Positions 22,898-30,139 of a stretch of DNA of 64,000 bases are shown here, one piece after another (the stretch's first letter is position 1; each line of letters starts with the position of its first letter). The stretch covers positions 124,001 through 188,000 of the forward strand of contig DASSCU010000005.1 of assembly GCA_035697485.1 (NCBI GenBank), read 5' to 3'. The notes below the pieces were generated by a model. That model saw only the letters and a list, made by a program, of their open reading frames with translations. It had not been told where the DNA came from and ran no database searches. A program made the translations under genes and the position numbers. The stretch is from Actinomycetota bacterium (lineage in GTDB: Bacteria; Actinomycetota; UBA4738; HRBIN12).

Positions 22898-23938
22898 TCA
22901 GACACCCTGCGGATCCACCGACCGCTCGGCGCCCCGAGCACCGTCGAACGTCTCGTCGGCGTGGGGAGCTTCGTGGTCGAGACGATCCCCGAGCGCCTCG
23001 TCGGCGAGCCGGAACGCCGTCGCGCTGACGTCGAGATCCTCCCGGTTCGCGAGCACGATCACGGTCGTGCGCTCGGTCGGGAAGCGCACCATCTTCGCCT
23101 CCCAACCGGGGAAGTTGCCGCCGTGACTGACGATCGGCACGCCCCGATGGCTGCGCACCGACAAGCCCCAGGCGTAGTGGATCGGCGTGCCGTCGTCGAG
23201 GGTGCCGCGGGTCGTGAGCCGATCGGCGAGCCATCCGTCGGTGAGCCGATCCTCGTCGAAGTTCCAGCTCCACGTGGCGAGATCGGCGACCGTCGTCCAG
23301 AGCCCGCCGGCGCCGACGGCGTGGAAGCGCGCCGGCTCCTCGTAGACGTTCCCGTCGTGCGCCTCGAAATGTCCGCGCACGGCTCGCTCGGGGAGCGGCG
23401 TCTCCGTCTCACGGAAGAACGTGTCCCGCATGCCGAGCGGCTCGAAGATGCGCTCGTGCGCCACTTCTGCGAGCGATACCCCGCTCGCGGCGGCGACGAC
23501 CTCGGCGAGGAGCAGGTAGCCTCGGTTCGAGTAGCCGTATCGTGAGCCCGGCTCGAAGTCGAGCTCGGCGATCCGGCGGAGCTCGTCGAGCAGATCGGCG
23601 TTCCCCCAGCCGGGCACGCCTTCGATCGGGACGCCCGGGCCGGTGCGCCGCCGCTCCTTCACGCCTCCCGTATGGTGCACGAGGTGCCGGATCGTGACCC
23701 GATCGCCCCACGGAGGCAGCCGCGGCACGAACCGCGAGACGGGGTGATCGAGGCGGAACGTGCCGTCGTGCTCGAGCAGTGCGACGCATGTGGCCACGAA
23801 CTGCTTCGCGATCGATCCGACGTAGAAGATGGCTTCGGGGTGGAGCTGATCGCCGGTGTGGCAGGACGGCGCACCACGAAAACCGAGGTCGATCGTGTCG
23901 CCGCGGACGACCGCGGTGACCGACCCCGGAGACGTCAC
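22898..23938 (-). CDS. Serine hydrolase of the class C beta-lactamase/PBP-like family
   Basis: 346 residues. Acyl-Ser motif SIAK (about residue 42-45), YSN-type YSNRGY (about 134), and HGG (SHGGNFPGWEAK, about 272), in the right order for the beta-lactamase/esterase fold (Beta-lactamase Pfam). No signal peptide is visible, so cytoplasmic esterase or peptidase activity is as likely as cell-wall work. Overlaps the ThyX-like gene by 4 bases. Not a proven resistance gene. Confidence 0.8.
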   Translation of the reverse strand: MTSPGSVTAVVRGDTIDLGFRGAPSCHTGDQLHPEAIFYVGSIAKQFVATCVALLEHDGTFRLDHPVSRFVPRLPPWGDRVTIRHLVHHTGGVKERRRTGPGVPIEGVPGWGNADLLDELRRIAELDFEPGSRYGYSNRGYLLLAEVVAAASGVSLAEVAHERIFEPLGMRDTFFRETETPLPERAVRGHFEAHDGNVYEEPARFHAVGAGGLWTTVADLATWSWNFDEDRLTDGWLADRLTTRGTLDDGTPIHYAWGLSVRSHRGVPIVSHGGNFPGWEAKMVRFPTERTTVIVLANREDLDVSATAFRLADEALGDRLDHEAPHADETFDGARGAERSVDPQGV

Positions 23939-25569
23939 GCCTCGGTGGTTCCTTCCCGCATCGCCTTGCGCTTCTCCTCGGTGCGGCGTTCCGCCTCGAG
24001 CCGCTCGAGGTCGACCTCGTCGTCACTCACGTAGCTGAACGTCTCCCCGATCGCGGGGTGCACGTCGGTGATCAGTCGGTGCATCGTCTGTGCGACTCGC
24101 CGGTACACGGGATGCCCGGCCGGCTGCGACCGCAGCTCGGTGAGGTGCATCGCCTCGCGCGCGGTCATCTGCATCACGAACCGGATGCGGTAGGCCATCG
24201 ACACGGCGTACTGGGCCTGCTCGGTGAACCCGGCGTCGAGGAGCGCGCGCTCGGTCTCGGCGCTCGCCTGCATCACGCGTTCCCAGTCGGCGCGCAGCCC
24301 GGCCTCGTCGATCTGCGGCGGGGTCTGGTACCCGTGTTCGGTGGTGAGCCGCTGCCACTCGATCGTGAGCGGGCGGTGCCGCTGCAGGTCGCGGAACGCA
24401 CCGTAGTCGCACAGCACGTCGAAGCGGTAGCTCGTGCGCTCCCAGGAACGACCCGGCTTGTGCCGCCGGTTCGACCGATCGCCGACGCTCGCGCGCAGGA
24501 TCTCGGCGACCTGCTCGCGTGGCATCGAGCGTGCGAGCGCGAGCAGTTGGTCGTCGGGCATCGCCGACGCCCCGTAGAGCACCGCGGCGGCGATCTTCGT
24601 CTCGCCCTCGGGGTCGAAGTCGACGAGCGTCACCTCGTCGCGGTGCTCGGGTTTCGCGCCGGCGTCGGAGAGCACGCGGGCGGTGAGGTCCTCGACCCGC
24701 TCGCGGTTCGCGTCCCAGTACCTCGACCAGGCCACCCCGCGTTCCTCGACGTCGACCCGCTTCAGGAACTCGGGGATGACCTTCCGCAGCTCGACCTTCA
24801 TCAGCTCGCCGTACTCCCGCATCTCGGCGAGCGGATGCACGGCCAGCCGCATCAGCAGCTGCTCGTACGACTGTCCGGTCGCGTAGATGCCCAGGTTCGA
24901 CCGGGTTCCCGCGGGGAGCAGCACCCGCAGCGTGTCGCATGTCTTCGCCAGGATCGTCTGGCGGTAGACGAAGTCGCTGTCGCCTTCCTGCTTCGGGTGC
25001 CGTTCCTTGAACCAGGTTGCCATCGGCTCGTACATGCGGCCGTACGTCGTGAACGCCTCGTCGAGGAAGGCCTCGTACCGCTCGCCCGCCGGGGTGCCGT
25101 CGAGCTCGGGCGGCAAGGTGGCCCGCCAGGCGCCGCCGGGTCGGTCGTCGTAGCGCATGTACCGCGTCGACTGCTCGAGGTAGGCGGCGAGCCGTCCCCA
25201 CTCGAGGGCCTTCGCGAGCAGCTGCGACGACTGCTCGCACGCGAGGTGTACCCCGCCGAGCTGGGCGACCGAGTCGTCGCCGTACTCGACGAAGACCGAG
25301 TCGTAGAGGCGGGCCGCGCGTTCGCTGCCGGCGGTCGACGAGGCGCCTGCGTGTGCACCGGCGATCTCGTCGGTGTATCCGGCGAACTCGTCGAGGAAGA
25401 GCCGCCGTAGCGGCTTCGTCGTGCGCGAGTAGCGCGCGAACAGCGCGCCCTTGACCGCCTCAGGCAGGTCGAGGAGCGCGAAGACCGGGCCCTCGAGGTT
25501 CGTGAAGTGGCGGGCGAGCACCGCTCGCTCGTCGGGCGTGAAGTCCTCGGTCACGTAGGCGAGCGTCAT
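23935..25569 (-). CDS. Double-length ThyX-like protein (tandem FAD thymidylate synthase domains)
   Basis: 544 residues, about twice a normal ThyX (220-250). Two ThyX-like halves can be read. Half 1 (about 1-270) has EYGDDSVAQLGG, WGRLAAYLEQSTRY at 124-137 and TCDTLRVLLPAGTRSNL. Half 2 (about 300-510) has HKPGRSWERTSYRFDV, DLQRHRPLTIEW at 395-405, and REAMHLTELRSQPAGH. The canonical signature RHRxxSxNExSxRY is divided: half 1 keeps ExSxRY but has WGR and Ala for the Ser; half 2 keeps RHR but loses the rest. ThyX methylates dUMP with FAD and folate; whether this form does so is open. No thyA is seen in the window. Confidence 0.8.
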   Translation of the reverse strand: MTLAYVTEDFTPDERAVLARHFTNLEGPVFALLDLPEAVKGALFARYSRTTKPLRRLFLDEFAGYTDEIAGAHAGASSTAGSERAARLYDSVFVEYGDDSVAQLGGVHLACEQSSQLLAKALEWGRLAAYLEQSTRYMRYDDRPGGAWRATLPPELDGTPAGERYEAFLDEAFTTYGRMYEPMATWFKERHPKQEGDSDFVYRQTILAKTCDTLRVLLPAGTRSNLGIYATGQSYEQLLMRLAVHPLAEMREYGELMKVELRKVIPEFLKRVDVEERGVAWSRYWDANRERVEDLTARVLSDAGAKPEHRDEVTLVDFDPEGETKIAAAVLYGASAMPDDQLLALARSMPREQVAEILRASVGDRSNRRHKPGRSWERTSYRFDVLCDYGAFRDLQRHRPLTIEWQRLTTEHGYQTPPQIDEAGLRADWERVMQASAETERALLDAGFTEQAQYAVSMAYRIRFVMQMTAREAMHLTELRSQPAGHPVYRRVAQTMHRLITDVHPAIGETFSYVSDDEVDLERLEAERRTEEKRKAMREGTTEA

Positions 25570-25590: not shown

Positions 25591-27267
25591 TCAGACGTCG
25601 CCACCACCACCCCGGAACACGGTCACGACCGATCCGGCCTCGACGAGCGTGCCGGGAGCCGGCTCCTGTCCGATGATCCGGCTCGGGTTCGGGCAGTCGG
25701 GCGTGGACGGCGCGGGCTCGCCCTCCTCGAGGAGCAACCCGAGGGGGCGGAGCAGCTGGTTGGCCCCGCCGACCGAGAGACAGCCGGTCGACACATCGGG
25801 TACCTCGACCATCTCGGGCCCGGTCGAGACGTAGATGTCGACCGCCGAGCCCGGTTCGACCTCGGCGTCGACCGCCGGCTCCGATCGGATCACGAGCCCT
25901 TCGTCGATGTCCGCGCTCGCTTCCTGCAGGGTGGAGCCGAGGGTGAGATCGGCAGCCCGCAGTTCCGTCTGAGCCTGCGACACGGTGAGGCCCTCGAGCG
26001 ACGGAACGGCGACGGTGTCGGGCTCCACGGCCACCGTGATCGTGACGGTGGATCCGCGCGCGACCTCCTCGTCGCGTCGGGGGTCCTGAGCCACGACCGT
26101 GCCGGGCTCGGTCTCGTCGGGGTCGACCTCGCGGCGGCGGACGTCGACCTCGAGGCCGAGCTCCTCGAGCTCCGCCTCGGCCGCGGCCTGCGTCTCGCCG
26201 ACGACGTTGGGCACGATGACCGTCACGGTGCCGCCGCTGTCGTCACCGGTCAGGCTGTCGACGAGCAGGTAGCCGCCGCCGGCGAGCAGGGCGAACAGCA
26301 ATAGGCCGATCAGGATGCCGAGCCAGACCTTCCTGCCCGACCCCTTCGGCTCCTCGGGGGGCGGCAGCACGGCGGTCCGCGACGACGGTCGTGAGATCAC
26401 CTGGGTGGCGTCGCCACCCCCGGCGGCCATCAACGGGGTCGCCTCGACCTCCTGCCCGGCGACCACCCGTGCCAGGTCGGCCGAGAACTCGTCGGCCGTC
26501 TGATATCGATTCGAGGGGTTCTTCGAGAGCGCCTTCATCACGACCGCGTCGAGCCGTGCCGGCACGTCGGGGTTCAGCGACGAGGGCACCGCGGGGGTCT
26601 CGTTCACCTGCTTGTAGGCCACCGCGACGGGAGTGTCACCGGTGAACGGTGGGCGACCCGTGAGCAACTCGTACAGCACCGCGCCGAGGGAGTAGATGTC
26701 GGTGCGGGCGTCGACCGGGCCACCCTGGGCCTGCTCAGGGGACAGGTAGGACGCGGTGCCGAGCACCGCGCTCGTCTGCGGCGCGGTCTCGGGGCCGAGC
26801 ACCCGGGCGATGCCGAAGTCCATCACCTTGATCACGCCCTCGCGCGTGATCATCACGTTGCCGGGCTTGATGTCGCGATGGATCACCCCTTGCGCGTGCG
26901 CGGCGGCGATGGCGGCGCAGATCTTCTGGGCGATCTCTGCGGCTTGCACGGGGGTGGGGCGACGGCCCGTCGCCATGAACTCGGCCAGGGTGCGACCCTC
27001 GATGAACTCCATCACGATGTACTGCGTGCCGTCGTCGGAACCGGTGTCGTAGACACCGACGATGTTGGACTGGTTGAGCCGAGCCGCCGCTTGGGCCTCC
27101 CTGCGGAACCGCTCGACGAAGCTCGTGTCGCGCGCCATCTGCGGCAGCAGCACCTTGATCGCGACCGTGCGGTTCAGCACCGGGTCGAAGCCCCGGTAGA
27201 CCTCGGCCATGCCTCCGGCGCCGATGCGCGCCTCGACCTGGTAGCGGTCGCTCAGCACCGACTTCAT
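25591..27267 (-). CDS. pknB: PASTA-domain Ser/Thr protein kinase (PknB-like)
   Basis: 558 residues. Kinase domain (about 8-270): GAGGMAEVYRGFD, catalytic HRDIKPGNVM, DFGIARV, APE-like YLSPEQ. One membrane helix (about 315-340). Then three PASTA domains outside, which bind muropeptides; the last contains two Cys (STGCLSV, PDCPNP) that could form a disulfide. Controls cell-wall growth and division. Last gene of the fhaA-fhaB-pstP-ftsW/rodA-pbpA-pknB unit. Mycobacterial PknB has four PASTA domains; here three are seen. Confidence 0.93.
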   Translation of the reverse strand: MKSVLSDRYQVEARIGAGGMAEVYRGFDPVLNRTVAIKVLLPQMARDTSFVERFRREAQAAARLNQSNIVGVYDTGSDDGTQYIVMEFIEGRTLAEFMATGRRPTPVQAAEIAQKICAAIAAAHAQGVIHRDIKPGNVMITREGVIKVMDFGIARVLGPETAPQTSAVLGTASYLSPEQAQGGPVDARTDIYSLGAVLYELLTGRPPFTGDTPVAVAYKQVNETPAVPSSLNPDVPARLDAVVMKALSKNPSNRYQTADEFSADLARVVAGQEVEATPLMAAGGGDATQVISRPSSRTAVLPPPEEPKGSGRKVWLGILIGLLLFALLAGGGYLLVDSLTGDDSGGTVTVIVPNVVGETQAAAEAELEELGLEVDVRRREVDPDETEPGTVVAQDPRRDEEVARGSTVTITVAVEPDTVAVPSLEGLTVSQAQTELRAADLTLGSTLQEASADIDEGLVIRSEPAVDAEVEPGSAVDIYVSTGPEMVEVPDVSTGCLSVGGANQLLRPLGLLLEEGEPAPSTPDCPNPSRIIGQEPAPGTLVEAGSVVTVFRGGGGDV

Positions 27268-27300
27268 CTCGTCACGCCCTTCGCCGTCTCCACCTCATGC

Positions 27301-28824
27301 CTACAGATACGCATCGATCACCTGCCTCGCGATCGGTGCCGACACCTGTCCGCCGGTGGCCTCGTTCCCGAGGTTTCCGCCGTCGAGAACGATAACCGCC
27401 ACGGCGATGCGGGCCTCGTCACCCGGTCCGGCCGGAGCGAACGCCGTGAACCAGGCGTTGGGTGGCCGGTTCTCCCCGTTCGTGGCCGTGCCGGTCTTGC
27501 CCGCCACCGCGATGGGGAAGCCCGCGAATGCGCTCGACGCCGTGCCGCCCTGGGTGACGGAGAGCATCATCGCCCGCATCTCCTTCGCGCTCTCGTCGCT
27601 GATCGGTTGGCCGTACTGTTCCTCGGAGAATTCGCGCACGGGCTTCCCCGTCGGATCGCGCACCTCGGTGATCAGCCGCGGTTGCATCATCACGCCGTCG
27701 TTCGCGATCGCCGCGGCGATCAGCGCCATGTGCAGCGGGTTCGTCAGCACGTTGTCGAGCCCGATCGCCGAGAACGCGAGTTGCGGCTGCCGGTCGGCGA
27801 AGTACGACGGTTCCGGGAAGCGTCCGTTGGCCCACGGCAGCACGAACGGGATCGTCGGCTCCTCGCACTCGACCTGCGTCGGCGGGTCGGTGGGGCAGAA
27901 GCCGTAGGCGAGCGCCTGCTCGCTCATCTCCTTGGCGCCGATGTCGAGTCCGATCTCGGCGAACGTGACGTTGCACGATTCCTGGAACGCCTCGGCCATC
28001 GAGACCGTCTGCGACCCCCCCTTGCAGAGCGATCCGCCGAAGTTCTCCAGCGTGTTCGTCGTCTGTGGCAGGTCGAGCACCCGCGGGTTCGGCCACTGGT
28101 CGGTGACCGGGTCGACACCGTTCTCGAGGGCGGCCGAGGCGGTGATCAACTTGCCGGTCGACCCCGGCAGGTAGAGCTCGTCCTTGGCCCGCGAGATCAA
28201 GGGCTGCTCGGGGTCGGTCGAGATCGCGTCCCAAGCCTCCGTGATGTCCTCGTCGGTCCCCGACGAGATCGAGTTGGGGTCGTACGAGGGGTTCGCGACC
28301 AGCGCGAGCACGTCGCCGGTCTCGGGTTCCACGGCGACGACGGCGCCGGGCAGGTCGCCGAGCGCGAGGGCGGCTGCTTCCTGCAGGTCGCTGCGGATCG
28401 TCGTGAACACCGCGCCTCCCTTGCGCTCCCGCCCGAGGATCAGGTCGGTGAACGTCGACACCGCGAGCTCGGGCGCATCGCCCGACAGGAACGGGTTGGC
28501 CGCCTGCTCGAGCTCGGCGCGCCCGTAGATGCGCGAGTAGTACCCGGTGAGGCCGGCGTAGAGCGGCCCGTCGGGATAGACCCGGCGGAACAGCAGCTCG
28601 GAGCGCCGCTCCTGGTTGCGCACGCTATGTGCCAGCAACTCCCCGTCGGCCGACAGGATCGGGCCGCGCTCGACGCGGTACTCCGCGATGATCTGGCGGC
28701 GAGCGTTCGCCGGCTGCGCCTTGATGTCGTCGGCCGCGATCACCTGCACGTAGGAGAGCTGCGCGAACAGCAGCGCGAACAGCACGACGAGGCCGATGCC
28801 GAGCCGGCGGATCCGCCTATCCAT
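27301..28824 (-). CDS. pbpA: Penicillin-binding protein 2 family transpeptidase (PbpA)
   Basis: 507 residues. N-terminal membrane helix (about 8-30), PBP dimerisation region, then transpeptidase domain with SxxK as PGSTGK (about 218), SCN-like QESCNVTF, and KTG as AGKTGTATN. Cross-links peptidoglycan with the partner FtsW/RodA coded just upstream (8-base overlap). Confidence 0.92.
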   Translation of the reverse strand: MDRRIRRLGIGLVVLFALLFAQLSYVQVIAADDIKAQPANARRQIIAEYRVERGPILSADGELLAHSVRNQERRSELLFRRVYPDGPLYAGLTGYYSRIYGRAELEQAANPFLSGDAPELAVSTFTDLILGRERKGGAVFTTIRSDLQEAAALALGDLPGAVVAVEPETGDVLALVANPSYDPNSISSGTDEDITEAWDAISTDPEQPLISRAKDELYLPGSTGKLITASAALENGVDPVTDQWPNPRVLDLPQTTNTLENFGGSLCKGGSQTVSMAEAFQESCNVTFAEIGLDIGAKEMSEQALAYGFCPTDPPTQVECEEPTIPFVLPWANGRFPEPSYFADRQPQLAFSAIGLDNVLTNPLHMALIAAAIANDGVMMQPRLITEVRDPTGKPVREFSEEQYGQPISDESAKEMRAMMLSVTQGGTASSAFAGFPIAVAGKTGTATNGENRPPNAWFTAFAPAGPGDEARIAVAVIVLDGGNLGNEATGGQVSAPIARQVIDAYL

Positions 28825-30139
28825 GCACTCGCTCCATCGGCCCGCTCGAGACCCGGATCAGCAGGGCGAGCATGATGAAGGTCGCGACCCGGCTCGAGCC
28901 CCCGTAGCTCACGAGCGGCAGCGGCACGCCGGTGAGCGGGATCAGGCGCGTCACGCCGGCCACGATCGCGAACGTCTGCAGCGCGAAGATCGTGGTGAGA
29001 CCCGTGGCGAGCAGCTTGCCGAACGTGTCCTGGCGCTCCATCGCGATGCGGAGGCCCCGGGCGATCAGGATCAGGTACAGCAGCAACAGCGCGACGGCGC
29101 CGATCATGCCCAACTCCTCGCCGAACGCAGCGAAGATGAAGTCGCTGCCGACGTAAGGGATCAACGTCGGCGAGCCCTGACCGAGGCCCGTGCCGACGAT
29201 GCCCCCGGTCGCCATCGCGAACCATCCCTGCGCGAGCTGGAAGTAGCCGAGCCCGGTCACCTTGTCGGGGTCGAGCGCATATAGCCAGGTGTCGACGCGC
29301 GCCTGCACGTGGGCGAACGCGAGGTAGCCGAACCAGGCGCCCGCCGCGAACATCACGAGCCCGAGCCACAGGTAGGCCGCTCGGCCGCTCGCGATCCAGA
29401 GCATGACGACGAAGACGCCGAAGAACAGCAGCGAGGCGCCCATGTCGCGCTCGAGGAACAGCACTGCGAGCGAGGCACCCCATGCGAGCAGTAGCGGCCC
29501 GAGGTCCTTCGCACGCGGGAGCCCGAAACGGCCCGAGCCCGCGGCGAGCAGCTCCTGCTTGTCCGTCAGGTACGACGCGAGGAAGACGACGATGAAGATC
29601 TTCCCGAACTCCGCCGGCTGGAACGAGAACGGCCCCACCTGCGCCCAGAGACGGGCCCCGTTGATCTCTCTCCCGATGCCGGGCACCACCGGCAGCAGGA
29701 GGAGCACCACGCCGATCAGGCCGAGCGTGTACGTGTACGCATTGAGCTGGCGATCGTCGCGCACGAGCCAGAGCGTGAGGCAGAACGCCGCGAGTCCGAC
29801 CAGCAGCCACATCGCCTGCTCCCGGGCAATGGTCGATTCGCCGCGCGCGACCATGATCCGGTAGAGCATCGCGATGCCGAGGCCTGCCAGCACCGTGGCG
29901 GTCGGGTAGAGCACCGGGTCGGCCCGAGGCGCGGCCCACCGCACTACGAGCCACCCGGCCACGAAGGCGCCGGTGAAGACGAGGCCGTAGACGACGAAGT
30001 CGCGGGGCGTGCGCCCCTTCAGGCCGAGCCCCGCCATCGCGTACGCCGCGAGCGAGATCGCGATCGCGACGATCAGCAGCCAGAGTCCCGTGACCGGTCG
30101 CCGGGCCTCGGTCGCGGCGGGGAGGGCGACCTCGCTCAC
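28817..30139 (-). CDS. rodA: FtsW/RodA/SpoVE (SEDS) glycosyltransferase
   Basis: 440 residues with about 12 membrane helices. SEDS motifs: ARLWAQVGPFSFQPAEFGKI with the catalytic-region Glu, FLASYLTDKQ, and PLVSYGGSSRVATFI near the end. Polymerises lipid II into glycan strands. GTG start overlaps pstP. The neighbouring pbpA points to the elongation (RodA) partner, but FtsW cannot be excluded. Confidence 0.9.
   Translation of the reverse strand: MSEVALPAATEARRPVTGLWLLIVAIAISLAAYAMAGLGLKGRTPRDFVVYGLVFTGAFVAGWLVVRWAAPRADPVLYPTATVLAGLGIAMLYRIMVARGESTIAREQAMWLLVGLAAFCLTLWLVRDDRQLNAYTYTLGLIGVVLLLLPVVPGIGREINGARLWAQVGPFSFQPAEFGKIFIVVFLASYLTDKQELLAAGSGRFGLPRAKDLGPLLLAWGASLAVLFLERDMGASLLFFGVFVVMLWIASGRAAYLWLGLVMFAAGAWFGYLAFAHVQARVDTWLYALDPDKVTGLGYFQLAQGWFAMATGGIVGTGLGQGSPTLIPYVGSDFIFAAFGEELGMIGAVALLLLYLILIARGLRIAMERQDTFGKLLATGLTTIFALQTFAIVAGVTRLIPLTGVPLPLVSYGGSSRVATFIMLALLIRVSSGPMERVHG

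Follow-up and report, generated by a model that had tools for sequence, protein, structure and literature searches.

How could a thymidylate synthase work if its active-site residues were shared out between two fused copies of the enzyme? The question is raised by a ThyX-like gene in the 64,000-nucleotide stretch of Actinomycetota DNA analysed here (the window), whose reading frame runs on the minus strand from an ATG start through 544 amino acids without an internal stop. A long, overlapping plus-strand frame over 23935-25569 lacked gene support and was rejected. The gene and its two domains are placed as follows.

23935..25569, minus strand: tandem thyX gene, 544 aa plus stop (translation and Pfam Thy1 matches)
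24715..25500, minus strand: half 1 (residues 24-285), ThyX domain predicted to supply the dUMP loop (profiles and AlphaFold2)
24010..24636, minus strand: half 2 (residues 312-520), ThyX domain predicted to supply RHR and the R174 equivalent (profiles and AlphaFold2)

The end of the gene overlaps by 4 bases (23935-23938) the start of a serine-hydrolase-like reading frame (22898-23938, minus strand), while a PASTA-domain Ser/Thr kinase lies 21 bases before it in a cell-division-type cluster (25591-30139) with penicillin-binding protein and FtsW-like genes. Kinase and penicillin-binding protein genes are also adjacent in near relatives (L033-L037), and near relatives keep the neighbourhood of PASTA kinase, penicillin-binding protein, FtsW-like and histidine genes.

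Both halves are recognizable as ThyX, in agreement with the initial annotation, which had read the protein as a tandem. Pfam Thy1 (PF02511) matched the protein twice, for a total of 133.6 bits (cut-off 24.8), and each half exceeded this cut-off in the genome search (78.6 bits for half 2 and 53.4 bits for half 1). Profiles built from close relatives matched the canonical ThyX profile with E values of 4.8e-13 (half 1) and 2.3e-10 (half 2), and profiles of the diverse family, with distant tandem members included, reached about 1e-23 and 1e-20, respectively. The AlphaFold2 monomer model (pLDDT 87, pTM 0.86) repeats the order of strands and helices in both halves, and its Foldseek matches among solved structures were ThyX, the aligned half not being stated in the search. 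No solved tandem ThyX was present in the copy of the structure database that was searched, where all ThyX chains found were 216-270 aa long. TIGR02170, the NCBIfam equivalog model for ThyX, scored 48.5 bits against a cut-off of 87.9, which counts against the reading of this protein as a working ThyX.

The full catalytic set (RHR, E-x-S-x-R-Y, R147 and R174) is present within the polypeptide, but it is split over the two domains and neither half carries all of it. Using alignments of the halves with each other and with canonical ThyX to map residues between the window protein, Thermotoga maritima and Mycobacterium tuberculosis, we located the kept and lost positions.

25159..25176, minus strand: half 1 E132-Q-S134-T-R136-Y137, equivalent to T. 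maritima E86, S88, R90 and Y91; invariant, except for Y137 replaced by F in one phage
24925..24927, minus strand: half 1 R215, equivalent to T. maritima R147 and M. tuberculosis R172; invariant
25270..25272, minus strand: half 1 S100, equivalent to T. maritima T55 and M. tuberculosis S71, the third-subunit FAD contact; invariant
25426..25428, minus strand: half 1 S48, part of an A-x-x-S-R motif that is invariant; probably corresponds to T. maritima S30 (folate loop), by motif comparison only
25192..25200, minus strand: half 1 W124-G125-R126, degenerate RHR position with RH lost (alignment)
24373..24381, minus strand: half 2 R397-H398-R399, the RHR motif (predicted FAD binding), R-H invariant (alignment)
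24130..24132, minus strand: half 2 R480, equivalent to T. maritima R174 and M. tuberculosis R199; invariant
24340..24357, minus strand: half 2 residues 405-410 (WQRLTT), degenerate dUMP loop with E, S, R and Y all lost (alignment)
24211..24213, minus strand: half 2 Q453 at the T. maritima R147 position, R lost (alignment)

By T. maritima numbering, R78 and H79 are W and G in half 1 of the window protein, and half 2 is without E86, S88, R90, Y91 and R147. Translation confirmed the two motif readings, WGRLAAYLEQSTRY at residues 124-137 and RHRPLT at 397-402. The accompanying claim that half 1 keeps ExSxRY and loses both RH and the serine needs one correction: RH is lost and ExSxRY kept, but the missing serine is only that of RHRxxS (A129), the catalytic-loop serine (T. 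maritima S88) being retained as S134.

Published structures indicate what such a division could mean. Each M. tuberculosis site draws R95-H96-R97 and R199 from subunit A, S71 and R190 from subunit B, and R87, S105, R107 and Y108 from subunit C (PMC6514825); in PolB, R82, H83 and R193 come from one monomer and E94, S96, R98 and R166 from its neighbour (PMC5003785). Across 96 tandem proteins, comprising 84 dereplicated homologues and 12 distant members from other phyla and phages (20-47% identical to the window protein), only half 2 held a complete and invariant subunit-A set, and only half 1 a complete and invariant subunit-C set together with the S71 equivalent. An alignment of 16 proteins (20-73% identity to the window protein) contained 15 invariant columns, eight of which are S100, E132, S134, R136, R215, R397, H398 and R480. 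Had nine residues each survived in a random half, so clean a split would be expected with a probability of 2 x 0.5^9 = 0.004, a figure that assumes independence of the residues and is a guide only. Because the same split is fixed in the 84 homologues and the 12 distant tandem proteins, it lies far above chance and is not the decay of a single gene. The complementary loss proposed at the outset holds in a stronger form than was claimed, with kept and lost residues dividing by the subunit that supplies them in known ThyX sites, and the partition of invariant residues along these published lines likewise supports the companion suggestion of one composite site with the other site dead.

Some residues fit less neatly. 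Half 1 of close relatives also keeps R126 and R241 (the R80 and R174 equivalents) and position 124 is R in 12 of the 84 homologues, both of which count against our best explanation. The equivalent of M. tuberculosis R190 (subunit B) lies in half 2, not half 1, of actinobacterial members and is variable in other members, which blurs the third-subunit assignment. In half 2 of members on Bacillus and Paenibacillus plasmids (L147-L149 and L154) the RHR motif reads RHNR, with an extra Asn between RH and R.

Taken together, we consider it probable (roughly 0.8) that the protein is a functional flavin-dependent thymidylate synthase with two specialised ThyX domains, its dimer forming a predicted pseudo-tetramer with two live and two dead sites. 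Two polypeptides would pair into a four-domain, ThyX-like assembly in which each working site takes from one half 2 the histidine and arginines of RHR plus R480, from one half 1 the loop residues E132/S134/R136/Y137 plus R215, and from the other half 1 the FAD/folate-facing S100, probably with S48. The opposite two sites would require the RH of half 1 and the E/S/R/Y loop of half 2 and would be dead, leaving the dimer with two live sites, not four, and with both chains required for each. Pairing of two proteins is thus probably required for making the thymidine building block. One half 2 plus both half 1 domains per site is the simplest arrangement, because S100 and the E/S/R/Y loop survive in half 1 and RHR in half 2. 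We infer the activity, the pairing of chains and the placement of the halves, and the use of three halves per site would follow from the four-fold layout of ThyX.

A working enzyme is consistent with thymidylate supply in the genome (3.41 Mb, 96% complete), where profile searches returned no match for ThyA, a second ThyX (Thy1), a DHFR of the PF00186 kind or thymidine kinase PF00265. The genome combines a tandem ThyX with no ThyA match, as when ThyX replaces ThyA, and has neither of the genes (thyA or a second thyX) that the initial annotation had named, together with a missing FAD/dUMP pocket, as evidence against thymidylate synthesis; the tandem ThyX appears to be its sole known thymidylate route. 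Full tandem ThyX genes were found in 58 of 199 genomes of the phylum, of which 57 had no match for another thymidylate synthase, none had a single-domain ThyX and one had a short ThyA fragment, a strong pattern of exclusion even though absence in draft genomes is no proof. In phage Tunturi_5 the tandem gene comes right after one for a dCMP deaminase, and a copy on a Euzebya pacifica plasmid lies near dcd. Both of these enzymes feed dUMP synthesis.

These observations make it very unlikely that the enzyme acts on a different uracil nucleotide (such as the UMP methylated by PolB) or has lost methylation altogether, a change of function that had been raised from the sequence. The ThyX fold can take on a different substrate, as in the UMP/dUMP methylase PolB (PMC5003785), and the position of T. 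maritima H53, a residue supplied by a third monomer (PMC11940539), is occupied in the window protein by D98 (25276-25278). This position is Asp in the close family and His in members from Bacillota, Tunturi_5, LMM01 and a Vibrio phage; the replacement counts against a working ThyX, although most distant members shown keep His. A changed function would nevertheless leave a 96% complete genome without any matched alternative thymidylate synthase, DHFR or thymidine kinase, and would have to accommodate the phylum-wide exclusion of other thymidylate synthases, the nucleotide-metabolism neighbours on phage and plasmid, and the invariance of the whole catalytic set. Only marginally more probable, and still improbable, is that dTMP is made but by one catalytic half, with a homomeric site of unusual residues in half 2 or half 1 and the other half structural. 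The stronger Pfam Thy1 match of half 2 and the retention of R126 and R241 in half 1 of close relatives would suit such an enzyme, but no half has the full residue set, both partial sets are invariant over the 96 proteins, phages included, and a structural half would not keep E/S/R/Y/R147 constant at 20-26% identity.

How the two specialised domains arose is a separate matter. A fusion of two ThyX genes that already differed, in place of duplication with complementary loss, is a tentative possibility that we find less convincing; it is compatible with our best explanation and would lead to the same present-day mechanism. The halves are hardly alike, their profiles matching each other at an E value of 0.0088 that is too weak for dating or rooting a duplication. 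When the diverse profile was used, the best match of half 1 was M. tuberculosis ThyX and that of half 2 was T. maritima ThyX. Best matches are weak evidence at such divergence, however, and a duplication followed by complementary loss is more parsimonious.

Close relatives of the protein occur in metagenome-assembled genomes (MAGs) of Actinomycetota and in Rokuibacteriota. Distant ones are encoded on Euzebya, Parabacteroides, Miltoncostaea, Bacillus and Paenibacillus plasmids, as well as by jumbo phages and cyanobacterial phages; a search of viral contigs with a phage tandem protein gave no match, and the diverse alignment proved too divergent for such a search. Over this range, it is likely that a widespread ThyX lineage has converted the homotetramer into a dimer whose chains are fused, complementary half-enzymes; each site would combine three halves contributed by two chains, and the remaining two sites would have been lost in all members examined. 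One genome (G040) carries two different tandem ThyX genes (L014 and one on contig C5; 65% and 56% identity to the window protein), one of which may be foreign given 5% contamination. Another tandem ThyX (L077), on a contig titled Bifidobacterium breve, resembles those of Acidimicrobiia, and the title of this MAG is probably wrong.

Weak Thy1 matches in five genomes of the phylum were suspected to be split halves, but this was rejected in favour of another ThyX of about 300 aa that is apparently circularly permuted (L155-L159; L156 at 1321-2229). In it, the canonical N-terminal part (ARVSY...HWSPLEH) is placed after the C-terminal part, and this piece matches the profile weakly but is clear by eye. 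L156 was assigned to phrog_85. Because one family (f11) holds both permuted and tandem forms, a tandem intermediate for the permuted ThyX is conceivable.

The tandem proteins, present in bacteria and phages, are a natural example of labour being divided within an essential homo-oligomer. They make the three-subunit ThyX site testable half by half, provide separately mutable copies of FAD-side and dUMP-side residues, and suggest that two of the four ThyX sites are dispensable. The split also explains why TIGR02170 underscores what is apparently the sole thymidylate synthase of many Actinomycetota. The proteins are already known by name, RefSeq using FAD-dependent thymidylate synthase for those on plasmids and the Ma-LMM01 protein being called thymidylate synthase; no description of a tandem or fused ThyX or of a split site was found in the open-access literature searched. 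The ThyX of Chlamydia trachomatis (CT632) is probably also of double length (about 530 aa). Papers describe the Chlamydia enzyme as cloned, assayed and making tetrahydrofolate, and, if it is double length, the activity of a tandem ThyX may already have been shown.

Among known systems, the tandem thymidylate synthases of Microcystis phage Ma-LMM01 (phrog_36506) and phage Tunturi_5 share the two-domain layout and the residue split, and among viral proteins that of LMM01 gave the best fold match along the whole window protein, but both are phage genes with 20-26% identity. The UMP/dUMP C-5 methylase PolB of Streptomyces cacaoi shares the ThyX fold but forms a tetramer of single-domain chains, each of which has all the motifs (PMC5003785). 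T. maritima TM0449 and M. tuberculosis ThyX have in common with the tandem protein the fold, RHR, the E-x-S-x-R-Y loop, the R147 and R174 equivalents and their use instead of ThyA. In these canonical enzymes, however, all residues lie in one chain of 216-270 aa that forms four equal sites, whereas in the tandem protein they are divided over two fused domains with two predicted sites.
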